Below are positions 43,841 through 56,793 of a DNA stretch of 64,000 nucleotides, one piece after another. The stretch's first letter is position 1; each line of letters starts with the position of its first letter. The DNA lies in assembly GCF_013409065.1 (NCBI RefSeq), contig NZ_JACBZP010000001.1, forward strand, positions 2,046,001 through 2,110,000, written 5' to 3'. Position numbers and translations under genes: made by a program. Origin of the DNA: Spelaeicoccus albus. GTDB lineage: Bacteria > Actinomycetota > Actinomycetes > Actinomycetales > Brevibacteriaceae. The notes beneath the pieces were generated by a model, which worked only from the letters and a program-made list of their open reading frames with translations, was not told the origin of the DNA and ran no database searches.

Positions 43841-45427
43841 GTGCTCGCGACACTGGTGATCGGTCTTCGTGAAGGCCTCGAAGCTGCGTTGATCGTCGGC
43901 ATCATTGCTGCCTTCTTGAAGCGCAACGGTAAAGCGCTGAAGGCCATGTGGATCGGCGTCACGCTGGCCGTCGTCCTGAGTATCCTGGTCGGTGTCGCCC
44001 TCACCGTCGTCGAACGGGCGCTCCCGCAGACCGAACAAGAAGCCATGGAGACGATCATTGGCGGCGTGGCAGTCGTCTTCGTCACCGGAATGATCGTGTG
44101 GATGCGCACGCATGCCCGCTATATGAAGCGCGAGCTGGAACATTCCGCCACCGAAGCGCTCGGCCAGGGCACGTCGCTGGCTCTTGCCGCAATGGCATTT
44201 TTGGCAGTGCTCAAAGAAGGATTCGAAACTTCCGTCTTCCTGTTGGCGACGTTCCAAGCGTCCACGAGTGTGGTGGCGGCGGTGATCGGCGCGGTCGTCG
44301 GCATCCTGATCTCCATCGGCATCGGAATCGGCCTGTACACCGGCGGCGTCAAGCTGAACCTCGGTAAATTCTTCACGGCAACCGGAGTGTTCTTGGTCTT
44401 CGTCGCTGCCGGCCTGGTGATCAGCGCGTTGCGTACCGCCCACGAAGCGGGCTGGATAGTCTTCGGGCAACAGCCGACCGTCGACCTCGCCTGGTTGGCT
44501 CCCGGCGGCTCGATCCGGGCGGCGCTGATCACCGGCGTTCTCGGCATCCCGGCCGACCCGCGCACCGTCGAAGCCGTCGGCTGGTTCCTCTACATCATTC
44601 CGATGCTGCTGATCACGTTGCTTCCCCGAGCGCTCCGCCCCAAGCCCGCGCATCAGCCGCGCGCGCATGGAATCGTGGCAGCAGGCCTGGGAGTCGGCGC
44701 CATCGCGCTGTTCGTCGCCATGCCGGACGCGCCACGGGCTGCGATCCCGGCGTCGGTGCCGTTGGGGTCGTCCGGCTCGGTCAGCGCGACCGGTGAATCA
44801 CCGGCTCCCGTCATCACTGTCCGCCGCGCCGGCGAATCGACGACCGTGCGTTTTGCCGCCGGGGACGGCGCTCCCAGCACGCACGCCGGCGCCGACACCC
44901 GTTGGCGCACCACGGTACCGGTGCCGCAAGGCCCTCGGCGGCTGACGCTCGACCGCTTGGTCAAGTTGAACGACGGATCCATTCCCGTCGGCCTCAGCCC
45001 CCGGCGCAACCCCGGGCCGTACGAGGCGAACTGGAAGCGCACGGCGACTGTGACGGCGTGGACGAAGGACGGGGCGTTGGTGGACGCCAAGCGGACATCC
45101 CGGACGATAGTCACACTGACCGGAGGCGGCCTGTCCGGCGCCCGAGTGGTGACCGTCGACCCGACCGGCGACTGGAGCGCCGCCCCGGACGCCGTTGCCG
45201 CGAATGCCGACGCCGTCGGTGCGGCTGACGCGGCCGCGCGCGATAGGGCGCTGTGGACGTTCTGGCTTCCCGGCGTACTGGCGATCGGAGCGATTGCCAC
45301 GGCACTGCGCGGGCTCGTCATTCGGCGGAAGCTGACCAAGCAGGACGACGAGCGCGCGCCGGAGACCGCCGGCGTACCGACAACGAACCTGAACGACACC
45401 TCTAGGAGAATGACCAATGCGACGTAG
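43841..45427 (+). CDS. efeU: FTR1-family iron permease EfeU with long C-terminal extension
   Basis: 528 residues. The first 280 are a seven-helix FTR1 permease with both REGLE-type iron motifs: LREGLEAAL (about 10-14) and LKEGFETSVF (about 125). The remaining 250 residues are an extra exported region (from about 310 to 480), rich in beta-like sequence (ITVRRAGESTTVRFAAGDGAP, RRLTLDRLVKLNDGS), ending in one more transmembrane helix (WTFWLPGVLAIGAIATALRG) and a cytoplasmic tail. E. coli EfeU lacks this part. GGAAGGA precedes the GTG. First gene of efeUOB; a DtxR-like box lies upstream. Its stop lies inside the start of efeO. Confidence 0.93.
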   Translation: MLATLVIGLREGLEAALIVGIIAAFLKRNGKALKAMWIGVTLAVVLSILVGVALTVVERALPQTEQEAMETIIGGVAVVFVTGMIVWMRTHARYMKRELEHSATEALGQGTSLALAAMAFLAVLKEGFETSVFLLATFQASTSVVAAVIGAVVGILISIGIGIGLYTGGVKLNLGKFFTATGVFLVFVAAGLVISALRTAHEAGWIVFGQQPTVDLAWLAPGGSIRAALITGVLGIPADPRTVEAVGWFLYIIPMLLITLLPRALRPKPAHQPRAHGIVAAGLGVGAIALFVAMPDAPRAAIPASVPLGSSGSVSATGESPAPVITVRRAGESTTVRFAAGDGAPSTHAGADTRWRTTVPVPQGPRRLTLDRLVKLNDGSIPVGLSPRRNPGPYEANWKRTATVTAWTKDGALVDAKRTSRTIVTLTGGGLSGARVVTVDPTGDWSAAPDAVAANADAVGAADAAARDRALWTFWLPGVLAIGAIATALRGLVIRRKLTKQDDERAPETAGVPTTNLNDTSRRMTNAT

Positions 45428-46640
45428 CAGCCGGCCGATGCGCGCCACGATGACGATAGCGGCAATTGCCGCGCTGACGGGCTTGACCGCCTGCTCCTCC
45501 TCGCCGACCGATGCGGGCGACAAGACCGATACCGCCCAAAAGACGACCTCGAAGATCGGCATCACGTTGAAGTCCGGCGGCTCGGGCGACACCTGCGACA
45601 TCGATTCGACCACCGCACACGCCGGGCCGGTCACGTTCACAGTCACGAACAAGAACTCGACGGCCATCACCGAAGTCGAGCTGCAAAGCGATCAGCGCAT
45701 TCTCGGCGAGAAGGAAAACCTCGCGCCCGGGTTGAAACCCGTCAGCTTCACCGTGACGCTCGACGGCGGTAAATACCAGATCTATTGCCCGAACGCCGAA
45801 AAGCAAATGCAGACCCTCACCGTCACGGGCAAGGCAGCCAAACCCACCGGGTCCACGCACGCGTTGCTCAAGCAGGGCACCAAGGGATACGCGAAATACG
45901 TCTCGGCGCAGGTCGCGTCCATGAAGGATGCCGCCGCCACACTGGAAAAGAAGATCGACGAGGGCGACTTGGCCGGGGCGAAGGCCGAATACGCGAAGGC
46001 GCGCCCGTTTTACGAGCACATTGAATCGGACGTCGACGGATTCGTGCTGCCCGGATTCAAGGCCACCGACAACAAGGGCAACCTCGACTATCTCATCGAT
46101 ATGCGGGCGTCGAACCTGGACAAGAGCGCAGGCTGGCACGGGTTCCACGCCATCGAGCGCGATCTGTACAAGCGAGGTGCCATTACCGACCAGACCAAAC
46201 GCTATGCGGCCGAGCTGACCAAAAACGCCACGACGCTCGTCGGCGTGGCGAAAAAGCTGCAGTACAAACCCGAAGACCTGGCCAATGGTGCGGCGGCCCT
46301 GCTCGAAGAAGTGCAGTCGTCGAAGATCAAGGGTGAAGAGGAACGGTACAGCCATCTCGATCTCGTCGACTTCGCCGCTAACGTCGAAGGCGCCCAAGAA
46401 GCGTTCGCCGAGCTCAAACCGGGCTTGAAGAAGATCGACGCCGGGTTGACCAAGCGAATTGCCGCGCAGTTCGACACGGTGAACTCCATGCTCGACGCGT
46501 ACCGCGATTCCGATGCGACCGGCGGCTACAAGTCCTACACGCCGGCGCTGCGCCACAAGAATGCCAACAAGCTCAGCCAGACGGTGCAAGCGCTGCAGGA
46601 CCCGTTGTCGCACCTTGCCGAAAAGGTCGCATCGGCGTAA
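45417..46640 (+). CDS. efeO: Iron uptake lipoprotein EfeO (cupredoxin + M75 imelysin-like)
   Basis: 407 residues. The lipoprotein signal ends in LTGLTAC (Cys26). An N-terminal cupredoxin-like domain (VTFTVTNKNSTAITEVEL to QIYCPN) is followed by the EfeO/imelysin helical domain with the iron motif HGFHAIE (about 241-247). In the EfeUOB system it is thought to bind iron outside the membrane and hand it to EfeU. ATG 45417 overlaps the efeU end by 11 bases, with AGGAG upstream; its TAA stop overlaps the efeB ATG, so all three are translationally coupled. Confidence 0.95.
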   Translation: MRRSSRPMRATMTIAAIAALTGLTACSSSPTDAGDKTDTAQKTTSKIGITLKSGGSGDTCDIDSTTAHAGPVTFTVTNKNSTAITEVELQSDQRILGEKENLAPGLKPVSFTVTLDGGKYQIYCPNAEKQMQTLTVTGKAAKPTGSTHALLKQGTKGYAKYVSAQVASMKDAAATLEKKIDEGDLAGAKAEYAKARPFYEHIESDVDGFVLPGFKATDNKGNLDYLIDMRASNLDKSAGWHGFHAIERDLYKRGAITDQTKRYAAELTKNATTLVGVAKKLQYKPEDLANGAAALLEEVQSSKIKGEEERYSHLDLVDFAANVEGAQEAFAELKPGLKKIDAGLTKRIAAQFDTVNSMLDAYRDSDATGGYKSYTPALRHKNANKLSQTVQALQDPLSHLAEKVASA

Positions 46641-47920
46641 TGGCGGGACGGCGCGAGCAAGCGGACGGCGATTCGGGCACGACTTCTCGGTTGAGCCGGC
46701 GGGGGTTCTTCACCGGCGCGGCCGGCGGTTTGGCGGCCGGTGGTCTGGCAGGGGTCGGCGGGACCCTTGCGGCCGGGGCGGTGGAGGGCCCGGGCAGCTC
46801 GGGGCAGCAATCGAATTCCGACCTGACGTATTCGTTTTACGGCTCCGGCCCGCAAGCGGGCGTGCGGACGCCGCCGCAACAATATTGCGTCTTCATGACG
46901 TTCGATCTGCAAATTGAGACGGCCCGGGAACTACAAGTCCTGTTGGCGACGTGGTCGGGAGCGATCGACCGGCTCATGAGCGGAAAGGCGATCGGCAGCG
47001 TGGAACCGAGCAGGTCGTCCGCAGTGCCCACCGATACCGGTGAAGCGCAGGAGCTCGGACCGAACGGGCTGACCGTCACGCTTGGACTCGGACCCGGTGT
47101 CTTCGACAAACGATTCGACCTGGCCGCGATGAAACCAGCGCTGCTTGCGGATCTGCCCTCGCTGCCGAGCGACCAGCTGCGAGCGGAATTGACCGGCGGC
47201 GACATCAGCTTGCAAGCGTGTGCCGACCATCCGCAAGTTGCCTATCACGCGATCCGCGACTTGGCCCGGATGGCCCGCGAAAGCGTGCACACCCGGTGGA
47301 CAGTGATGGGGTTCGGCAAGGCATCGGCCGGCGCCGGACAAAAGACTCCGCGCAATTTGCTCGGATTCAAGGACGGCACCAGGAACATCACGGAGAAGTC
47401 CGATTACGATGACTTCGTCTGGCTCGGGAAGGATGCCGGGTGGATGGCCGGGGGCACTTACCAGATCGCCCGAAAGATTCAAATGAACATCGAGATCTGG
47501 GACGCCGATCACATCGGCGACCAGCAGGACGTCTTTGGCCGGACGAAACACGTCGGCGCTCCGCTGACGGGAAAACACGAATTCGATACCCCGGACTTCG
47601 CGAAGAAGAAGGCGGACGGCGATCCGGTCATTCCCGCCACATCGCACATAGCGCTTGCCGCACACGAGAACAACGACGGCATCAAGATCCTGCGCCGGCC
47701 CTACAACTACACCGACGGCATCAGCAGATTCGGCCAGTTGGACGCCGGGCTGCTGTTCATGGTGTACACGAACGATCCGGACAATTTCAGCCGCTTACAA
47801 CGCAAACTTGGCGCCTCGGACCGGCTGAACGAATACATCGGGCACATCGGCTCTGCCGTTTTTGCCGTGCCGCCGGCCGTGAAGTCGGGGCACTATCTCG
47901 CCGAGGAACTCTTCGGCTGA
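46640..47920 (+). CDS. efeB: Dyp-type heme peroxidase / deferrochelatase EfeB
   Basis: 426 residues. A Tat signal peptide, SRRGFF at 19-24 followed by a Gly/Ala-rich hydrophobic stretch, directs export with heme bound. The Dyp-type signature GFKDG (242-246) holds the distal Asp245; the late region INRFGQ-like (SRFGQLDAGLLFMVYTNDP) is conserved in the family. It oxidises ferrous iron or releases iron from heme for EfeU/EfeO. ATG overlaps the efeO stop (TAATG). The gene ends convergent to the sugar operon, with no strong hairpin in the 37-bp gap. Confidence 0.95.
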   Translation: MAGRREQADGDSGTTSRLSRRGFFTGAAGGLAAGGLAGVGGTLAAGAVEGPGSSGQQSNSDLTYSFYGSGPQAGVRTPPQQYCVFMTFDLQIETARELQVLLATWSGAIDRLMSGKAIGSVEPSRSSAVPTDTGEAQELGPNGLTVTLGLGPGVFDKRFDLAAMKPALLADLPSLPSDQLRAELTGGDISLQACADHPQVAYHAIRDLARMARESVHTRWTVMGFGKASAGAGQKTPRNLLGFKDGTRNITEKSDYDDFVWLGKDAGWMAGGTYQIARKIQMNIEIWDADHIGDQQDVFGRTKHVGAPLTGKHEFDTPDFAKKKADGDPVIPATSHIALAAHENNDGIKILRRPYNYTDGISRFGQLDAGLLFMVYTNDPDNFSRLQRKLGASDRLNEYIGHIGSAVFAVPPAVKSGHYLAEELFG

Positions 47921-47957: not shown

Positions 47958-48959
47958 TTACCCCTGGTTGGAAAAGGCTGCGTCGAACGAGGTCTCGGAC
48001 GGCGCGAAGTCGAACTTCTTCAACGCGTCCAAGGCTTCCGGAGCACCGCGCAGACGATCCATGCCGGCGTCCTCCCACTCGACCGAGATCGGCCCGTCAT
48101 AGGAAATCGCGTTCAGTGCGCGGAAGCACGACTCCCACGGCACGTCGCCGCGCCCGGCCGACACGAAATCCCACCCGCGACGAGCATCGCCCCACGGCAG
48201 GTGCGAGCCGAGGCGCGTATTGCGTCCGGTCACGCGCAGCTTCGTATCCTTGCAATCCACGTGATAGATCCGGTCGCGGAAGTCCCAAATGAACTCCACC
48301 GGGTCGATCTGCTGCCACATGAAATGGCTGGGGTCCCAGTTGAGACCGAACGCGGGCCGGTGGCCGATCTCGTCCAAGGTCCGCACCGTCGTCCAATAGT
48401 CATAGGCGATCTCGGACGGATGAACCTCGTGGGCAAAGCGCACGCCGCATTCGTCGAACACGTCGAGGATCGGATTCCATCGGTCGGCGAAATCCTTGTA
48501 GCCCGCGTCAATGACTGACTGCGGGACCGGCGGGAACATCGCCACATATGGCCAGATCTTTGACCCGGTGAATCCGACAACCGTCTTCACGCCGAGCCGC
48601 TGTGCAAGCCGAGCCGTCAGTTTCATCTCTTCCGCGGCCCGGGTGCGCACGCCTTCGGGATCCCCATCGCCCCAGACGCGGCTGCCGACGATCGCCTGGT
48701 GGCGGAAGTCGATCGGGTCGTCGCATACGGCCTGGCCCTTCAAATGGTTCGAGATGGCGAATACCTCGAGGCCGTTCTTGTCCAAGATGTCGAGCCGGTC
48801 TTGAATGTACTCATCATCATCCCACCGATAGGCGTCGAGATGGTCACCGGATACGGCGATCTCCAAGCCGTCGTATCCCCAGCCCGCCGCCAGTTCGGCG
48901 ACCTGCTCGAAGGGCAGGTCCGCCCATTGTCCGGTGAACAGCGTGAACTTGCGTGCCAT
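47958..48959 (-). CDS. Sugar phosphate isomerase/epimerase-like TIM-barrel protein (AP endonuclease 2 family)
   Basis: 333 residues. A xylose isomerase-like TIM barrel: FEQVAELAAGWGYDGLEIAV near the N-terminus, and metal-site candidates in FAHEVHPSEIAYD, NWDPSHFMW and HVDCKDTKL. Members include isomerases, epimerases, dehydratases and enzymes that cleave 3-keto-glycosides. Last gene of a four-gene minus-strand operon (gap of three bases to the preceding oxidoreductase), so the oxidoreductase probably makes its substrate or uses its product. Confidence 0.9.
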   Translation of the reverse strand: MARKFTLFTGQWADLPFEQVAELAAGWGYDGLEIAVSGDHLDAYRWDDDEYIQDRLDILDKNGLEVFAISNHLKGQAVCDDPIDFRHQAIVGSRVWGDGDPEGVRTRAAEEMKLTARLAQRLGVKTVVGFTGSKIWPYVAMFPPVPQSVIDAGYKDFADRWNPILDVFDECGVRFAHEVHPSEIAYDYWTTVRTLDEIGHRPAFGLNWDPSHFMWQQIDPVEFIWDFRDRIYHVDCKDTKLRVTGRNTRLGSHLPWGDARRGWDFVSAGRGDVPWESCFRALNAISYDGPISVEWEDAGMDRLRGAPEALDALKKFDFAPSETSFDAAFSNQG

Positions 48960-48962
48960 GAC

Positions 48963-50105
48963 CTAGACTCCTCGGATGTCGATTGTCTGATTTTGCTTTT
49001 GGTCGCTGACCTCGATGGCGTCGAGCACTTGTTGGACGGCCAGCCCGTCAGCGAACGACGGGGCCGGGTTCGTGTGGTCGGCAGCCCCGAACAACAGGTC
49101 GCGGACCTCGTGGGTAAACGTGTGCTCCCAGCCGAGCACGTGCCCTTGCGGCCACCAGCCGTCCAAGTACGGGTGTTCCGGTTCGGTGACGAGAATGCGT
49201 CGCTCGCCTTGCTCGGCTGCCGGAAGCCCGGCGTCGTGGAACCACAGCTCGTTCGGCCGCTCGAGATCGAACCGCAGGCTGCCGCCGTCCCCATAGACTT
49301 CGATTTGCAAGGCGTTCTTCCGGCCGGTCGTCACCCTGGAAACCTCGATGGATGCCACTGTGCCGCCGTCCGTGACCAGCGTGGCCCACGCCGCGTCGTC
49401 CACCGTGACATCTTCGAGACCGTGCGGACCCGGACGGCGGGAAGTGAACGTGCGCATGCGCGCCGACACCGATTCGACGTCGTCGCCCAGCAGGAACCGC
49501 ACCTGGTCGACGGCGTGCGATCCGAGATCGCCAAGTGCTCCGGAGCCGGCTTGCTCCTTGCGCAGCCGCCAGCTCATCGCTGCGGTCGGATCCGACAGCC
49601 AGTCCTGATAGTAGGCAACGCGCATTTGCGCAGGGGCGCCGATCCTGCCGTCGGCGATCATCGAGCGGGCCAGCGCGAGAGCCGGCATGCGACGGTAATT
49701 GAACCCCACCATGGCGATCTGACCGCGCACCGCGGCCGACTCGGCGACCGACGCCATCTCTTCGGCCTCGGCGAGTGTGTTGGCCAGCGGTTTTTCCACC
49801 AGCACGTGTTTGCCGGCGCGCAACGCGGCCACGGCGATCTCGGCGTGCAGCATGCCGGGAGCGCAGATATCGACGATATCGACGTCGTCCCGCGTCACGG
49901 CGGCCCTCCAATCGGCGGACGAATCCGACCAGCCCAGCCCGGCTGCCGCCTCCCGGGCGCGGTCGGGATCCCGGCCGACAAGCACTGTGCGCTCGAAGGC
50001 CGGCACGTCGAACACGCTCGCCACATTGCGCCAGCCTTGAGAGTGGGCGCGGCCCATGAACGAGTGGCCGACTATCGCGACACCGAGGGGACGGTTCGAT
50101 TGCAT
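48963..50105 (-). CDS. Gfo/Idh/MocA-family oxidoreductase
   Basis: 380 residues. N-terminal Rossmann fold (GVAIVGHSFMGRAHSQGW; the usual GxGxxG is altered to VGHSFMG), then the catalytic EKP motif in VLVEKPLAN and the C-terminal substrate domain with GDLGSHAVDQVRFLLGD, whose histidine is the usual active-site residue. Oxidises a sugar or cyclitol hydroxyl with NAD(P). ATG 50105 has AGGAG four bases upstream; the frame extends much further upstream without support. Partner of the TIM-barrel gene downstream. Confidence 0.93.
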   Translation of the reverse strand: MQSNRPLGVAIVGHSFMGRAHSQGWRNVASVFDVPAFERTVLVGRDPDRAREAAAGLGWSDSSADWRAAVTRDDVDIVDICAPGMLHAEIAVAALRAGKHVLVEKPLANTLAEAEEMASVAESAAVRGQIAMVGFNYRRMPALALARSMIADGRIGAPAQMRVAYYQDWLSDPTAAMSWRLRKEQAGSGALGDLGSHAVDQVRFLLGDDVESVSARMRTFTSRRPGPHGLEDVTVDDAAWATLVTDGGTVASIEVSRVTTGRKNALQIEVYGDGGSLRFDLERPNELWFHDAGLPAAEQGERRILVTEPEHPYLDGWWPQGHVLGWEHTFTHEVRDLLFGAADHTNPAPSFADGLAVQQVLDAIEVSDQKQNQTIDIRGV

Positions 50106-50170: not shown

Positions 50171-51283
50171 TTACGACAACGTGGCAGCGGTGGTGTCCCA
50201 GTCCTCGGGCAATGGTTCGGCGGCGGTGGCAGTGCTTGTCACATCGACGAACGCTCCCGTGTCGATCGATTCGGTGATCGACACCATGGTGTCCAACACA
50301 TGGAAGGCTGTAGCACCTTGCGCGCGGTGCGGGCGCCCGGCCCGGAGGGCCCGTGCCATTTCCAGGACGCCGGAACCGCGCGAGCTTGTCGCGCCCACGG
50401 CCGGGATCGTGACCGGATCGGCGCCGGTCCGGGTGAGGACCGCGTCGCCGTCGAACATGTTCGGATCCGGCAGCGAGATCGTGGCGTCGGTCCCGGTGAT
50501 CTCGACGAATCCGGCACGCTGCTTGGGGGATTCGAAGCTGAAGATGCTTTGGGACGACTCGCCGCCCGCGAACCGGGCGATGGCGCTGACGTGTGTCGGT
50601 ACCGTGACGGCGAATTCCTGGCCGGCCTTCGGACCGGAGCCGATCACGCGGGTATCGCGGGAGCGCGATCCGAATGCGGCGACGGATTTGAATGCGCCGA
50701 ACGTCTGCACAAGGGTCGTGAGGTAATACGGGCCGACGTCGAACAACGGGCCGGCGCCCTCCTGGAACAAGAACGCCGGATTCGGGTGCCACGATTCCGG
50801 GCCGGGGGACTGGATCAGAGTCAAGGCCGTGAGCGGTGTGCCGATATCGCCGCGGCGGATCGTCCGCAACGCCGTTTGCAGACCGGCGCCCAAGAAGGTG
50901 TCGGGCGCGCAGCCCAGTCGCACGTCGGCCGCTTCGGCCGCTTCGAGCAGCTTCCGTCCGGAAGCCGGATCGAGCGCGAACGGCTTTTCGCTCCACACGT
51001 GCTTACCGGCCGCCACGGCGGCAAGTCCGACATCGACGTGCGCGGCCGGGATGGTCAGGTTGATCACGATCTCGACGTCGGGATGATTCAGGACGACGTC
51101 CACGTCGCCGTGCGCGTCAATGCCGTACGCGGCGGCCTTGGCCGCAGCCGCCTCGGGGAACATGTCGCCGATGGCGTGAACGACGATGTCCGGAAACGAC
51201 GTCAGATTGTCCAGGTATTGTTCACTGATGGTGCCGGCACCGATGACGCCGACGCCGACCGGGCCGGATGTCCGATTCGCCAT
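50171..51283 (-). CDS. Gfo/Idh/MocA-family oxidoreductase
   Basis: 370 residues. Rossmann motif GVGVIGAGTISEQYL, catalytic EKP in VWSEKPFAL, and the C-terminal DVGPYYLTTLVQTFG in place of the GSHxxD pattern: a Tyr stands where many relatives have His, so its chemistry may differ from the oxidoreductase at 48963. Its ATG directly abuts the TAA of the TIM-barrel gene upstream, with no gap, so the two are tightly coupled and may act on the same sugar. Confidence 0.93.
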   Translation of the reverse strand: MANRTSGPVGVGVIGAGTISEQYLDNLTSFPDIVVHAIGDMFPEAAAAKAAAYGIDAHGDVDVVLNHPDVEIVINLTIPAAHVDVGLAAVAAGKHVWSEKPFALDPASGRKLLEAAEAADVRLGCAPDTFLGAGLQTALRTIRRGDIGTPLTALTLIQSPGPESWHPNPAFLFQEGAGPLFDVGPYYLTTLVQTFGAFKSVAAFGSRSRDTRVIGSGPKAGQEFAVTVPTHVSAIARFAGGESSQSIFSFESPKQRAGFVEITGTDATISLPDPNMFDGDAVLTRTGADPVTIPAVGATSSRGSGVLEMARALRAGRPHRAQGATAFHVLDTMVSITESIDTGAFVDVTSTATAAEPLPEDWDTTAATLS

Positions 51284-52015
51284 TTACTTGCCGCCTTCCA
51301 AAAAGTTCAAGCTGTCGGTCACTGCGGTGAACATGTCGCCCGCGAAGTCGTCGAGTTCGACGACACCCGCGTCGATGGACCCCGCAGCCTCGATGATGTC
51401 CCAAATCGGTAGGGTGCCCGATCCGACGGCGACTTGGTCGCCGGGCTCCTTGGTAGCCGGGCCGTCCTTGATGTGGATGAATTTCACTCGGTCGCCCAGT
51501 GAGCGAAGCAGTGCGGCAGGATCGGCGCCTCCGACCTGGGCCCAGTACGTGTCGACTTCGAGGACGACTGCCGGATCGAGGTGGTCGGCAAGAACTTCCA
51601 AGCCGAATTTGCCGTCGAACGTCGACTCCAGCTCAAACCAGTGGTTGTGGTATCCGACCCGAATGCCGTGGCCGGCGCCTCGGGCAGCTGCGGCATTGAG
51701 CTTGTCGGCCGTGGCCCGGATGGCATCGACGCTCGTCCACAATTCCGGGGCAACGAACGGGTCGATGACCGTCCCGATCCCGAGCGTTGCGGCCGCCGCA
51801 AAGATTTCGTCCTGATCCTCGCGCAGCAACGGGGCGTGTCCGCTGGGTGCGCTCAGCCCGTTCGCCTCGAAGGCGTCGCGCAATTGATCCGCCGTGGCGA
51901 CGAAGTTGTACGGTTCGACGGCCGAGTATCCGATGCCGGCAACGCGTGTCAGCGTGCCCGGCAGGTCGGCGGCCATCGCGTCGCGCAGGGAATAAAGTTG
52001 GAGGGAATACGACAC
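51284..52015 (-). CDS. Sugar phosphate isomerase/epimerase-like TIM-barrel protein
   Basis: 243 residues. First gene of the minus-strand operon. Barrel motifs: SYSLQLYSLRDAMAADLPGTL, then GYHNHWFE, VLEVDTYWAQVGG and KFIHIKDGP, which supply Glu, Asp and His metal ligands as in IolE/hydroxypyruvate isomerase relatives. GGAG precedes the GTG. It is shorter than its relative at 47958 and only distantly similar. The promoter with an overlapping 27-bp operator lies 58-93 bases upstream. Confidence 0.92.
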   Translation of the reverse strand: MSYSLQLYSLRDAMAADLPGTLTRVAGIGYSAVEPYNFVATADQLRDAFEANGLSAPSGHAPLLREDQDEIFAAAATLGIGTVIDPFVAPELWTSVDAIRATADKLNAAAARGAGHGIRVGYHNHWFELESTFDGKFGLEVLADHLDPAVVLEVDTYWAQVGGADPAALLRSLGDRVKFIHIKDGPATKEPGDQVAVGSGTLPIWDIIEAAGSIDAGVVELDDFAGDMFTAVTDSLNFLEGGK

Positions 52016-52072: not shown

Positions 52073-52101
52073 ACAGTAGATCAGCTTTTGACGACGGTCA
52101 A
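52073..52101 (-). promoter_or_regulatory. Promoter of the sugar-metabolism operon
   Basis: On the minus strand: -35 TTGACC (52101-52096), 17-bp spacer, -10 TACTGT (52078-52073). The -35 and most of the spacer lie inside the operator at 52082-52108. Confidence 0.6.
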
Positions 52102-52108
52102 GCAAAAG
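52082..52108 (-). promoter_or_regulatory. Operator-like 27-mer, copy 1 (probable ROK regulator site)
   Basis: Read on the minus strand: CTTTTGCTTGAC, three variable bases, CGTCAAAAGCTG at its right end. It is an imperfect palindrome (TTGAC/GTCAA inside CTTTTG/CAAAAG) and matches copy 2 at 53498-53524 at 25 of 27 positions in the same orientation relative to its promoter. Confidence 0.75.
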
Positions 52109-52148
52109 ATGCCTGACAGAAATTATTCTTTTGGAGTATGACAGGCAT
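52109..52148. promoter_or_regulatory. Second inverted repeat in front of the ROK gene
   Basis: ATGCCTG (52109-52115) and CAGGCAT (52142-52148) flank an AT-rich 26-bp stretch (with AATTATTCTTTTGG). It directly follows operator copy 1 and precedes the ROK start, so it may be an additional control site for the regulator's own promoter. Confidence 0.4.
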
Positions 52149-52174
52149 AATTGCCGCATGCTATTTGTAGGTAC

Positions 52175-53380
52175 ATGGTGAACCCGGTGCGAGACCAGTC
52201 CGCAGCAGGCACGTTGTCCCGTGCCGGAGACCTCTTTCAGTTGCTTCGCGACGGCAAGGCGCGCACGCGCGCCGAGCTTGCCTCGACGACCGGGCTGGCG
52301 CGCTCAACTGTTGCGTCGCGCATCGATGCGCTGATCTCGTCGGGCTTCGTCGGCGCGGCCGGCGAAGCTGCGTCGTCCGGCGGGCGCCCGCCGTCCCGGT
52401 TTGCGTTCAATCCCTCGGCTCGGATCGCCATGGCCGTGGATGTCGGCGCCATGCACGTGGTCGTCGCCCTGACGGACCTGAACGGCACCGTGCTGTCCGA
52501 GGAGCGCGGCGATCTCGAAGTGGCGGCCGGCCCGGACGTCGTCCTCGACTGGGTGATTGACAGCGGGAGTCGCCAGATCCGTCAGATCGGACGGCCGGCG
52601 TCGTCCCTGACCGGGATCGGGATCGGCCTGCCGGGGCCGGTCGAGCATTCCACGGGTCGACCCGTCAACCCGCCGATCATGCCGGGGTGGGACGGATTCG
52701 ACGTACCGGCGCGTGTGCAAAGCACCTTCGACGTGCCGGTGCTGGTCGACAACGATGTCAACATCATGGCCCTCGGCGAGCAGGCGACGTTTTGGCCGGG
52801 CGACGACAACCTCTTGTTCGTGAAGGTGGCGACGGGTATCGGCGCCGGAATCATCAGCAGTTCGCGCCTCCAGCGCGGCGCCGTCGGCACTGCCGGGGAT
52901 CTTGGGCACGTACGGGTGCCTCGCGGTGAGGGGGTGGTGTGCCGATGCGGCAACATCGGGTGCCTCGAGGCCTTGGCGTCCGGCCCGGCCATCGCCAAGA
53001 GTCTCAGCGAGATCGGACTGCCCACGGCCGGCCGCGAAGATTTGCTCGAGCATGTGCGGCATGGACGAATTCAGGCCATCCAAGCACTTCGGCAGGCCGG
53101 ACGCGATGTCGGCGATGTGCTTGCCACCTGCGTCAATTTGCTCAACCCGTCGGTCATCGTCATTGGCGGGAGCCTGTCCCACTTGGGTGAGCATCTGATG
53201 GCGGGAGTGCGTGAAGTGGTGTACCACCGTTCGCTTCCGCTGGCGACCTCGAGCCTAAGGATCGCGCCGTCCATGGCCGGTGATCAGGCAGGCGTCTTGG
53301 GGGCCAGCCGGATGGTCATCGAGCATGTGCTCTCGCCGGCAAATATCGAAGCGGCAGTCGCCCCGAACGGCGAGAACTGA
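52175..53380 (+). CDS. ROK-family transcriptional regulator
   Basis: 401 residues. An N-terminal winged helix (about 25-70: ARTRAELASTTGLARSTVASRIDALISSGFV) is joined to a ROK sugar-kinase-like domain with IGIGLPGPVEHSTGRPV, VLVDNDVNIMALGE, KVATGIGAGIISS and the zinc motif CRCGNIGCLEA (about 255-265). Such proteins are sugar-sensing repressors or activators. ATG 52175 is chosen; a TTG eight codons earlier is possible. It sits between the sugar-metabolism operon and the ABC transporter, each of which has a near-identical operator over its promoter, so it most likely controls both. Confidence 0.9.
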   Translation: MVNPVRDQSAAGTLSRAGDLFQLLRDGKARTRAELASTTGLARSTVASRIDALISSGFVGAAGEAASSGGRPPSRFAFNPSARIAMAVDVGAMHVVVALTDLNGTVLSEERGDLEVAAGPDVVLDWVIDSGSRQIRQIGRPASSLTGIGIGLPGPVEHSTGRPVNPPIMPGWDGFDVPARVQSTFDVPVLVDNDVNIMALGEQATFWPGDDNLLFVKVATGIGAGIISSSRLQRGAVGTAGDLGHVRVPRGEGVVCRCGNIGCLEALASGPAIAKSLSEIGLPTAGREDLLEHVRHGRIQAIQALRQAGRDVGDVLATCVNLLNPSVIVIGGSLSHLGEHLMAGVREVVYHRSLPLATSSLRIAPSMAGDQAGVLGASRMVIEHVLSPANIEAAVAPNGEN

Positions 53381-53497
53381 GCCGGGTCGCCGCGCTGCGC
53401 CACTAGCGGTGCAATGCCCGTTTTAGGCAGCTGCATGCTTTCGTTTTGCAGCCCAAACTGTGTGTCTACGATCCGGAAGATGCCGATTAGTTATCAA

Positions 53498-53524
53498 CTT
53501 TTGCTTGACGCTCGTCAAAAGCTG
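53498..53524 (+). promoter_or_regulatory. Operator-like 27-mer, copy 2 (probable ROK regulator site)
   Basis: CTTTTGCTTGAC, three variable bases, CGTCAAAAGCTG. Differs from copy 1 only in two central bases (GC versus CG). It covers the -35 hexamer and spacer of the ABC-transporter promoter. Confidence 0.75.
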
Positions 53525-53533
53525 GCCTAGGTT
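53505..53533 (+). promoter_or_regulatory. Promoter of the sugar ABC-transporter operon
   Basis: -35 TTGACG (53505-53510), 17-bp spacer, -10 TAGGTT (53528-53533), giving a leader of roughly 40 bases before the binding-protein start. The 110 bases between the ROK stop and this site hold no gene. Confidence 0.65.
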
Positions 53534-53581
53534 GAACCTAGCCGAATCATCGGGTGCACAAAACGACGAGGGAGTCCAGTG

Positions 53582-54904
53582 GTGAAAACTTCTAAAACTT
53601 TGGTGGGTATTGCGGCGGCCGTCGCATTGACGCTCACTACCGCGGCCTGCGGTAACGGCGGTTCCGACAACGCTTCATCAAACGGCGATTCCAAAACGCT
53701 CACCTATTGGGCGAGCAACCAGGGCACGAGCATCCAGAACGACAAGGACGTGTTGAAGCCCGAACTGAAGAAGTTCGAAAAGAAAACGGGCATCAAGGTC
53801 AATCTGGAAGTCATCGGCTGGAACGACCTGCAAACCCGAATTCAAACGGCCATCACGTCGGGCCAGGCTCCGGACGTCGTCAACATCGGCAATACATGGG
53901 CCGCCTCATTGCAGGCCACGGGAGCCTTCCTGCCGTTCGACTCGGCAAATATGAAAGCGATCGGCGGCAAGGACAAATTCGTCGAAACGGCGTTGAAGAC
54001 CGGTGGCGCGCCGGGCAAGACGTACACGTCCGTGCCGCTCTACGGGCTGGCGTACGGCCTCTACTACAACAAGAAGATGTTCGCCGATGCCGGGTTGAAG
54101 CCGCCGACGAGCTGGCAAGAGCTCGTCACCGACGCCAAGAAGCTGACCAATCCGAAAAAGGACGTCCACGGCCTTGCCCTTGCGGCGGGCAGCTACACCG
54201 AGAACGCGCACTTCGCGTTCATCAACGCGGCACAGGACGGCGGCGGATGGTTCGATTCGAAGGGCCAGCCGACGTTCACGAAAGCGGGCAACATTTCGGG
54301 CATCAAGCGCTACCTCGACCTGATGCAGACGGACAAGGTCGCGCCGACGTCGAATGCGCAATATGACAACGGCACCAAATCCGTGAATGACTTTGCCAAC
54401 GGCAAGGCTGCAATGGTGATCAATCAGAACAACGCCGACAACTCGATTCGCTCGCAGGGCATGAAGCCGAATGAGTACGGCGTCGTGCCGTTCCCCGCGC
54501 CGACGGGCGGCCAGCCGGTCGCCAGCCACGTGGCCGGAATCAATTTGTCGGTCTTCAAGAACACGGACAACAAGGCCGGCGCGCTGAAGTTCGTCAAGTT
54601 CATGACGAGCAAGGATGTGCAAAAGACGCTGGACAAGCCCTACTCGGCGCTTCCGGTGCTGAAAGACGGCAAGGTGACGTTCACGTCGAAGGCCAAGGAG
54701 GCCAAGACGTTCCAGAAGATCTACAACACGATGTCCAAGCCGCTTCCGCTGGTGGCCAATGAGGACCAGTTCGAAAGCACTGTCGGAAAGGCGATGAACA
54801 AGATGTTCGCGCAGATCGCGACAGGGAAGTCCATCACCAAGAGCGACATCAAGCAAGCACTGTCGACGGCGCAGCAGCAAGTGGCTGCCTCCTCAGCCGG
54901 CTGA
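53582..54904 (+). CDS. ABC transporter substrate-binding lipoprotein, CUT1 type
   Basis: 440 residues. Lipoprotein signal ending TLTTAAC (Cys23), then a mature family-1 solute-binding protein: LTYWASNQGTSIQNDKDVL, an aromatic-rich pocket region, and the typical GKAAMVINQNNADN and VASHVAGINLSVFKN. Binds a sugar outside the cell and delivers it to the permeases downstream. Two GTG codons stand in tandem; GGAG is seven bases before the second (53582), which is preferred. Lys-rich and highly regular codon use suggests strong expression. Followed by an intercistronic hairpin. Confidence 0.93.
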   Translation: MKTSKTLVGIAAAVALTLTTAACGNGGSDNASSNGDSKTLTYWASNQGTSIQNDKDVLKPELKKFEKKTGIKVNLEVIGWNDLQTRIQTAITSGQAPDVVNIGNTWAASLQATGAFLPFDSANMKAIGGKDKFVETALKTGGAPGKTYTSVPLYGLAYGLYYNKKMFADAGLKPPTSWQELVTDAKKLTNPKKDVHGLALAAGSYTENAHFAFINAAQDGGGWFDSKGQPTFTKAGNISGIKRYLDLMQTDKVAPTSNAQYDNGTKSVNDFANGKAAMVINQNNADNSIRSQGMKPNEYGVVPFPAPTGGQPVASHVAGINLSVFKNTDNKAGALKFVKFMTSKDVQKTLDKPYSALPVLKDGKVTFTSKAKEAKTFQKIYNTMSKPLPLVANEDQFESTVGKAMNKMFAQIATGKSITKSDIKQALSTAQQQVAASSAG

Positions 54905-54918
54905 CACTCGCGAGTAGA

Positions 54919-54955
54919 GGCGGGCGGAGCCGGCATTGCACCGGCTCCGCCCGCC
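54919..54955 (+). terminator. Intercistronic hairpin after the binding-protein gene
   Basis: Perfect 15-bp arms GGCGGGCGGAGCCGG (54919-54933) and its complement (54941-54955), with a seven-base loop and no U-tract. In other sugar ABC operons such hairpins protect the binding-protein mRNA and lower permease expression, which fits this position. Confidence 0.65.
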
Positions 54956-54989
54956 CTACGGCAATCAACCCGTGAGACGAAAGGATTCC

Positions 54990-55961
54990 ATGTCAGTCGT
55001 GACGAAGTCTCCGGACCGCAAGGTCCGAAGGCGTGGGGGCGCACCGGAACGCCGGCGACGCAAGCCCGGATGGTGGCTGCCGTACGCGCTGCTCGGCCCC
55101 GCAGTGCTGTTCGAGATCCTCGTTCACCTGATTCCGATTGTCATCGGCGTCTGGATGAGCTTCATCAAACTGACGAAATTCTTCATCGCCAATTGGGGTG
55201 CGGCTCCGTTCGCCGGCCTGGCGAACTTCCGCATTTCCCTCGACTTCAGCGGCGTGCTCGGCAAATCGCTGCTCAACTCGTTCTTGATCACCTGTGCATT
55301 CACCGTATTGGCCGTTGGCCTGTCGTGGGTGCTCGGCATGGCCGCCGCCGTGGCGCTGCAAAAAGCGTTCAAAGGCCGCGCGATCTTTCGCACGCTGTTC
55401 CTCGTGCCGTATGCGCTGCCCGTTTACACGGGCGTCATCGCGTGGAAGTTCATGCTGCAGAAGGACAACGGTGCCATCAACCACCTGCTGGTCGACAATC
55501 TGCACGTGCTGGGCGACAAGCCGTTCTGGCTTCTCGGTGACAACACCTTCGTTTCGATAGTGATAGTGGCAGCTTGGCGGCTCTGGCCGTTCGCCTTCCT
55601 GATGCTGATGGCCGGCCTGCAGAGCATTCCCGAGGACCTGTACGAAGCAGCGGCGATCGATGGAGCCAAACCATTTCGTCAATGGACGAACGTGACGCTG
55701 CCGATGCTGCGCAGCGTCAACACAGTCGTCCTGCTGGTGATGTTCCTTTGGACGTTCAACGACTTCAACGTGCCGTACGTGCTGTTCGGCACATCCGAAC
55801 CGGCGGGCGGCGACCTCATCTCGTTCCACATCTACAACACGTCGTTCCTGACCTGGAACTTCGGTCTCGGCTCCGCGATGTCCGTTCTGCTCGTCGTCTT
55901 CCTGCTCATCGTGACGGGCGCCTATCTCATCCTGACGAACCGGAGGGCCCGCCGTGCGTGA
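54990..55961 (+). CDS. Sugar ABC transporter permease (MalF-like)
   Basis: 323 residues, six transmembrane helices after a strongly basic N-terminus (RKVRRRGGAPERRRRKPGWW). The cytoplasmic EAA loop that docks to the ATPase reads EAAAIDGAKPFRQWTNVTLP. AAAGGA lies before ATG 54990; an in-frame ATG upstream falls in the intercistronic hairpin region and is rejected. Forms the channel with the next gene. Confidence 0.94.
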   Translation: MSVVTKSPDRKVRRRGGAPERRRRKPGWWLPYALLGPAVLFEILVHLIPIVIGVWMSFIKLTKFFIANWGAAPFAGLANFRISLDFSGVLGKSLLNSFLITCAFTVLAVGLSWVLGMAAAVALQKAFKGRAIFRTLFLVPYALPVYTGVIAWKFMLQKDNGAINHLLVDNLHVLGDKPFWLLGDNTFVSIVIVAAWRLWPFAFLMLMAGLQSIPEDLYEAAAIDGAKPFRQWTNVTLPMLRSVNTVVLLVMFLWTFNDFNVPYVLFGTSEPAGGDLISFHIYNTSFLTWNFGLGSAMSVLLVVFLLIVTGAYLILTNRRARRA

Positions 55962-56793
55962 GACCAAACCCGAAAAGCTCTTCCGCGTGATAGTGCTCGT
56001 CGTGCTGTCGCTGTTCACGATCCTGCCGCTCTATGTGATGATCACCTCGTCGATCAAGCCCCTCGGCGACGTCCAGAGCGCGTTCCAATGGATACCGAAG
56101 CACCTGACGATCCAACCCTTCATTCAAATGTGGTCGACTGTGCCGCTGGCAAGCTACTTCGTCAACAGCATCATCGTGTCGGCCGCGGCAACTCTGTTCA
56201 GCGTGGCGATCGCGATCTTCGCGGCCTTCGCCGTGTCGCGTTACAAATTCTTCGGCCGGAACGTGTTCACCACCACTGTCCTTTCGACGCAGATGTTTCC
56301 GGGCATCCTCTTCCTGTTGCCGCTGTTCCTGATCTTCGTGAACATCGACAGGTCGCTCGGTGTTCAGCTGGTCGGTACGAGGATCGGGCTGATCATCACG
56401 TATTTGACCTTCTCGCTGCCGTTCTCGATCTGGATGCTTGTCGGGTATTTCGACGGCATCCCGCGCGAACTGGACGAGGCGGCGAAGGTCGACGGGTCAT
56501 CGCCCCTGGGGGCCTTGTTCCGCGTCGTGCTTCCCGCCGCGAAGCCCGGGTTGACGGCCGTTGCGATTTATTCGTTCATGACGTCCTGGGGCGAGGTGCT
56601 CTTTGCCTCGGTCATGACGACCGACGCCAACAGAACGCTTGCCGTTGGTCTGCAACTGTATTCGACGCAGACGAACGTGTACTGGAACCAGATCATGGCC
56701 GCCTCGCTGATCGTGAGCATCCCGGTGGTGGTCGGGTTCCTCGTACTGCAACGGAGCTTCGTGGCGGGCCTGACGGCCGGCGCCGTCAAGTAA
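55954..56793 (+). CDS. Sugar ABC transporter permease (MalG-like)
   Basis: 279 residues, six transmembrane helices. EAA loop: ELDEAAKVDGSSPLGALFRVVLP. GTG overlaps the previous gene by eight bases. No ABC ATPase follows; in many Actinobacteria CUT1 permeases share a single housekeeping ATPase of the MsiK type encoded elsewhere (established for Streptomyces), which is the likely case here. Confidence 0.94.
   Translation: MRETKPEKLFRVIVLVVLSLFTILPLYVMITSSIKPLGDVQSAFQWIPKHLTIQPFIQMWSTVPLASYFVNSIIVSAAATLFSVAIAIFAAFAVSRYKFFGRNVFTTTVLSTQMFPGILFLLPLFLIFVNIDRSLGVQLVGTRIGLIITYLTFSLPFSIWMLVGYFDGIPRELDEAAKVDGSSPLGALFRVVLPAAKPGLTAVAIYSFMTSWGEVLFASVMTTDANRTLAVGLQLYSTQTNVYWNQIMAASLIVSIPVVVGFLVLQRSFVAGLTAGAVK

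Follow-up and report, generated by a model that had tools for sequence, protein, structure and literature searches.

A candidate ROK operator overlapping both outward promoters of a sugar cluster in Spelaeicoccus albus and recurring with its ROK subfamily in actinobacteria

Introduction

Mlc and NagC of E. coli and Lmo0178 of Listeria (PDB entry 5f7q) are regulators that share a helix-turn-helix (HTH), a ROK domain and a zinc motif, and they use a T-rich/A-rich palindromic operator at sugar promoters. The long-spaced layout of such ROK palindromes, with one T-rich and one A-rich arm, is summarised in PMC4856308. RokB and CsnR of Streptomyces are actinobacterial members, and RokB has two binding sites at its own divergent promoter (PMC4856308). 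The available text of two further reports describes levoglucosan clusters consisting of lgdA-lgdB1-lgdB2-lgdC and an ABC transporter, in Bacillus smithii (PMC7676230) and in Paenarthrobacter (PMC10066097).

Here we analyse a stretch of 64,000 nucleotides of Spelaeicoccus albus DNA (the window) that carries a ROK gene within a sugar cluster. Its product has the architecture of Mlc, NagC and Lmo0178, at 21-23% identity over the aligned model, and its candidate operator is of their type.

The sugar cluster and its ROK protein

The cluster contains the following genes.

47958..48959, minus strand, TIM barrel protein (2zds, 544 bits; 2-hydroxy-3-keto-glucal hydratase 8ro4, 138 bits)
48963..50099, minus strand, Gfo/Idh/MocA oxidoreductase, levoglucosan-dehydrogenase-like
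50171..51283, minus strand, Gfo/Idh/MocA oxidoreductase
51284..52015, minus strand, xylose-isomerase-like TIM barrel, first leftward gene (weak likeness to xylose-isomerase-like 8bvk)
52175..53380, plus strand, ROK-family transcriptional regulator, 401 aa (HTH ~17-56, ROK domain 86-382, zinc motif)
53579..54904, plus strand, sugar ABC transporter substrate-binding lipoprotein
54936..55961, plus strand, ABC permease 1 (coordinates from the first possible ORF start; translation may begin further inside)
55954..56793, plus strand, ABC permease 2

The ROK domain is recognised at 198.6 bits (PF00480, residues 86-382), and Pfam HTH matches at the N-terminus lie just over the cut-off. In the fold model (mean pLDDT 86) the winged-HTH helices span residues 17-24, 32-39 and 43-56, and the alignment with Lmo0178 and Mlc runs from residues 5-16 onward. 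The top full-length structural match is operator-bound Lmo0178 (5f7q, Z 37.1, rmsd 4.7, 378 aligned), and Mlc is on a par with it (3bp8, Z 36.5, rmsd 3.2, 370 aligned). The zinc motif GH..CxCGxxGCxE is intact, and its residues His245, Cys256, Cys258, Cys263 and Glu265 are invariant in the alignments.

Two Gfo/Idh enzymes, two isomerase-like enzymes and an ABC importer make up the lgdA-B1-B2-C parts list, and thus the cluster likely encodes a putative 3-keto (levoglucosan-type) oxidative sugar-cleavage pathway, judging by analogy. Candidates for the partners of LgdA have the expected fold classes (TIM barrels, a second Gfo/Idh), and one of them gives the 138-bit match to 8ro4. The published lgdA-lgdB1-lgdB2-lgdC cluster likewise combines a pair of Gfo/Idh enzymes with a pair of TIM barrels of the xylose-isomerase type and a sugar ABC transporter, as far as the available text of PMC7676230 and PMC10066097 describes it. 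We rejected the outright name levoglucosan degradation because the dehydrogenase at 48963-50099 misses the curated LgdA cut-off NF052479 (304 versus 650 bits). Its nearest solved relative is 4h3v, and the levoglucosan dehydrogenase LGDH 6a3f is a weaker match. No ABC ATPase gene is found in the sugar cluster. To be noted, the deposited name of 2zds, 'putative DNA-binding protein', is probably wrong because 2zds groups with 3-keto-glucal hydratase-like TIM barrels. An efeUOB iron-uptake-like set (permease, lipoprotein and, by sequence, Dyp-type peroxidase) lies directly before the sugar module at 43841-47920.

Operator copies and the outward promoters

A preliminary description of this DNA had reported two near-identical 27-mers with the ROK gene between them. 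Both are present at 52082-52108 (minus strand) and 53498-53524 (plus strand) with 25 of 27 positions identical, and the ROK gene at 52175-53380 does lie between them. Read from 52108 to 52082, the minus-strand copy is CTTTTGCTTGACCGTCGTCAAAAGCTG, and the plus-strand copy is CTTTTGCTTGACGCTCGTCAAAAGCTG. With up to 3 mismatches the 27-mer has 2 matches in the window, against 0 expected from shuffles. The candidate operator proposed earlier is supported after refinement; overlooked were the outer dyad, a weaker third copy and the likely leaderless start of rok.

52085..52108, minus strand, operator O1, CTTTTG-N12-CAAAAG core (within the 27-mer 52082-52108)
52128..52151, plus strand, operator O2, weaker copy with 2 mismatches (on the rok side of O1, 43 bp away)
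53498..53521, plus strand, operator O3, CTTTTG-N12-CAAAAG core (within the 27-mer 53498-53524)

Both strong copies are fused to a predicted promoter.

52096..52101, minus strand, -35 element TTGACC of the leftward (catabolic) promoter, inside O1
52073..52078, minus strand, -10 element TACTGT of the leftward promoter, 17-bp spacer
53505..53510, plus strand, -35 element TTGACG of the rightward (transporter) promoter, inside O3
53528..53533, plus strand, -10 element TAGGTT of the rightward promoter, 17-bp spacer

TTGAC had been proposed as the -35 element, followed after 17 bp by TACTGT or TAGGTT; this spacing is exact at both sites and is conserved in relatives. TTGAC occupies the same operator register at 47 of 61 N12 sites from homologous loci. 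At 44 of these 47 it is followed by TAnnnT after 16-18 bp (33 at 17, 9 at 18 and 2 at 16), while any other offset has TAnnnT in at most 2 sites of 47. The conserved spacing supports both promoters. A strict E. coli-type scan of the window region found no promoter, which is due to the weak -10 boxes (TAnnnT).

We propose that the ROK protein would act as a local repressor, binding the 24-26 bp dyad ACTTTTG-N12-CAAAAGT at O1 and O3. With the -35 TTGAC placed in the operator spacer, the bound protein would physically keep RNA polymerase off both promoters, shutting down the TIM-Gfo-Gfo-TIM catabolic operon to the left and the genes for the substrate-binding protein and two permeases to the right. 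O2, on the rok -35 element, would set the rok level through autoregulation. A sugar or pathway intermediate filling the sugar pocket of the ROK protein would release the DNA; this inducer probably belongs to the anhydrosugars or glycosidic sugars, or is the 3-keto product of one of them. We hold this reading, local repression at O1 and O3 with autoregulation at O2 and sugar-triggered release, with high confidence.

It is improbable that the ROK protein binds the same sites and works as an activator or dual regulator. The operators do sit at the -35 region, and some ROK proteins act otherwise than by simple repression, such as CysR of C. glutamicum, which requires effectors for binding (PMC4856308). 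However, both strong operators straddle the -35 element, and the constant register of TTGAC within the dyad fits steric exclusion. Activators usually bind upstream of -35.

Conserved form of the operator

Phylogenetic footprinting identifies the outer dyad ACTTTTG-N12-CAAAAGT as the invariant element upstream of ROK homologues, whose axis of symmetry falls between core positions 12 and 13. The preliminary description had taken GAC-N3-CGTC as the conserved dyad, which is incorrect: the outer CTTTTG...CAAAAG is conserved and the inner dyad just partly. The outer dyad is a long-spaced palindrome with a T-rich left and an A-rich right arm, located at promoters, as is typical of ROK operators. With at most 2 mismatches it is present upstream of rok in 27 of 30 relatives (0 of 30 coding controls). 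The same search in 80 named genomes of several actinobacterial orders (Arthrobacter, Cellulomonas, Oerskovia, Microbacteriaceae, Glycomyces, Nocardiopsis and Aeromicrobium) places it directly upstream of rok at 61 of 80 homologous loci, against 1 of 80 coding-sequence controls. Shuffles for the two sets give 0.2-0.9%; this recurrence sustains the earlier proposal of a candidate new ROK operator. A good operator within 350 bp was not found at about one fifth of the 80 loci. CAAAAG and CTTTTG are the most conserved positions among the 61 sites, mostly at 1.4-2.0 bits.

Seven of the 68 upstream sites with at most 2 mismatches under either spacer have N13. The 13-bp spacer, in place of 12 bp, is seen in Amycolatopsis and some others, where TTGAC keeps a fixed distance from one half-site. 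At Cellulosimicrobium and Oerskovia loci, the intergenic region upstream of rok contains a pair of operators separated by about 225-310 bp.

Linkage to a ROK subfamily

The combined operator pattern, with 1 mismatch allowed, gives 73 matches in 396 genomes of the order, and the reversed control gives 0. An orthologue of the ROK protein is encoded in 60 of the 61 genomes with the pattern, compared with 142 of 396 in the background; the sole exception is a genome that is 76% complete. The hypergeometric probability of this association is 4e-30 with kinship ignored, which inflates the figure and not its direction. Fifty of the 73 sites lie at most 300 bp upstream of a ROK start; another 8 are no more than 20 kb away. 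About one third are not directly upstream of ROK, some of them lying elsewhere in ROK-bearing genomes. The upstream regions of eight ROK paralogues at 34-46% identity give nothing above background for the operator.

Six relatives also have an O3 copy ahead of the orthologous substrate-binding gene, at 0-1 mismatch in Paenarthrobacter sp. DKR-5, A. silviterrae, A. terrae, Arthrobacter HY1533 and GMC3 and at 3 mismatches in Tersicoccus solisilvae. In the first five the order of the eight-gene cluster is identical and both operators are present. The motif, whose absence near orthologous clusters had been named as evidence against an operator, is present in these syntenic Arthrobacter relatives. 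In other actinobacteria the same ROK/operator pair precedes RbsA/AraG-type ABC ATPases, and overall the operator accompanies the ROK subfamily across several actinobacterial orders. Subfamily linkage, promoter fusion and the recurring O3 together argue for the earlier view that a ROK operator probably covers both outward promoters. Since the same arrangement recurs across actinobacteria, it very probably represents an ordinary on/off switch for a sugar pathway that was hitherto undescribed.

A regulator encoded elsewhere might instead read the inner palindrome TTGAC-N4-GTCAA, with the ROK gene as a bystander. Both window sites carry this palindrome intact, and relatives retain part of it, with G at core position 17 in 53 of 61 sites. 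We nevertheless rejected it as the operator because most relatives lose the inner dyad and keep the near-invariant outer CTTTTG/CAAAAG. Furthermore, in Brevibacterium-like relatives TTGAC is shifted onto the right half-site while the outer dyad persists, which points to the outer arms as sites of the protein and TTGAC as that of the polymerase. As site presence also tracks the ROK orthologue (60 of 61 genomes), a bystander role of ROK is highly improbable, and the inner palindrome is, judging from the alignments, a by-product of the -35 element and a partly conserved CG.

Genome-wide search

Exact CTTTTG-N12-CAAAAG occurs twice in the single 4.03-Mb contig, as O1 and O3 only. TTGACN4GTCAA occurs three times, at O1, at O3 and within an ABC ATPase gene. 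Weaker look-alikes of the 26-mer pattern (at most 3 mismatches) number 37 in the genome, versus 53 for reversed controls. Four of them were considered as extra targets and rejected: genome positions 608714 and 595822 lie within a dispersed repeat, and 3428253 and 1478441 are intragenic. The repeat is nearly identical over about 75 bp in two copies 13 kb apart, and it mimics the operator by chance. As the look-alikes do not exceed the controls and the best ones fall in the repeat or in genes, the strong regulon appears to be local. The 'complete regulon' of the preliminary description would accordingly comprise what just two strong sites in the genome control.

That the repeats are just strong promoters of similar sequence, or a repeat that is mobile or due to chance, and hold no operator, is the least credible reading: TTGAC is indeed a -35 element and the dispersed repeat mimics the motif, but CAAAAG/CTTTTG are the most conserved positions without being promoter elements, and the pattern, with 73 matches against 0 in the control, tracks one protein subfamily.

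O2 and the promoter of rok

Local repression by the ROK protein would include its own gene, whose predicted promoter elements are the following.

52139..52144, plus strand, predicted rok -35 element TGACAG, overlapped by O2 (TGACA conserved in Arthrobacter-type relatives)
52162..52167, plus strand, predicted rok -10 element TATTTG, 17-bp spacer, with 7 bp between it and the ATG at 52175

An O2-type site at the matching offset (at most 3 mismatches, N12 or N13) is present at 9 of 22 Arthrobacter-type loci including the window, and at 0.4% of control offsets. The overlap of O2 with the conserved TGACA suggests autoregulation of rok. In relatives too, a conserved TAT-type -10 element lies just a few bases ahead of the rok ATG, at a similar distance. 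From the closeness of the -10 box to the ATG, the rok mRNA is probably leaderless. In several relatives the gene divergent from rok also looks leaderless.

Comparison with known systems

In the available text of PMC7676230 and PMC10066097, ROK genes are among the reported lgdA neighbours, as in the window cluster, and no operator description for levoglucosan clusters is found. The B. smithii cluster has a LacI regulator where a ROK protein is present here, according to the available text of PMC7676230. The motif also ties the ROK subfamily to a pathway resembling the recently described oxidative (3-keto) levoglucosan-type route. A broader proposal, which we consider possible at somewhat less than an even chance, is that a hitherto undescribed ROK subfamily in several actinobacterial orders, with the promoter-fused operator ACTTTTGCTTGAC-N6-CAAAAGT followed by TAnnnT, may be a general control of clusters for oxidative 3-keto cleavage of sugars or glycosides, sensing a 3-keto or anhydrosugar intermediate.

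Few actinobacterial ROK operators have been described so far, and for one ROK subfamily, in about one third of the sampled genomes of the order, there is now a sharply defined motif. It is usable for finding more target genes and for building sugar-responsive promoters. A published description of the motif was not found in the literature, and an earlier RegPrecise prediction is possible.

The RokB site at novH, AGTTTGTTC...GAACAAAG, has the same long-spaced layout as the window operator (PMC4856308). In contrast, the genomic RokB sites have a TVCVT centre and the CsnR site CCTCTTCTGGTAGGAAACTTTCCTATCAGT is unlike in sequence, and the targets of both proteins differ from those here (PMC4856308). 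Unlike Mlc, NagC and Lmo0178, the window ROK protein is associated with the half-site ACTTTTG and a distinct local regulon. The candidate operator and the predicted regulon are new; the type of regulator, a local ROK repressor, is already known.
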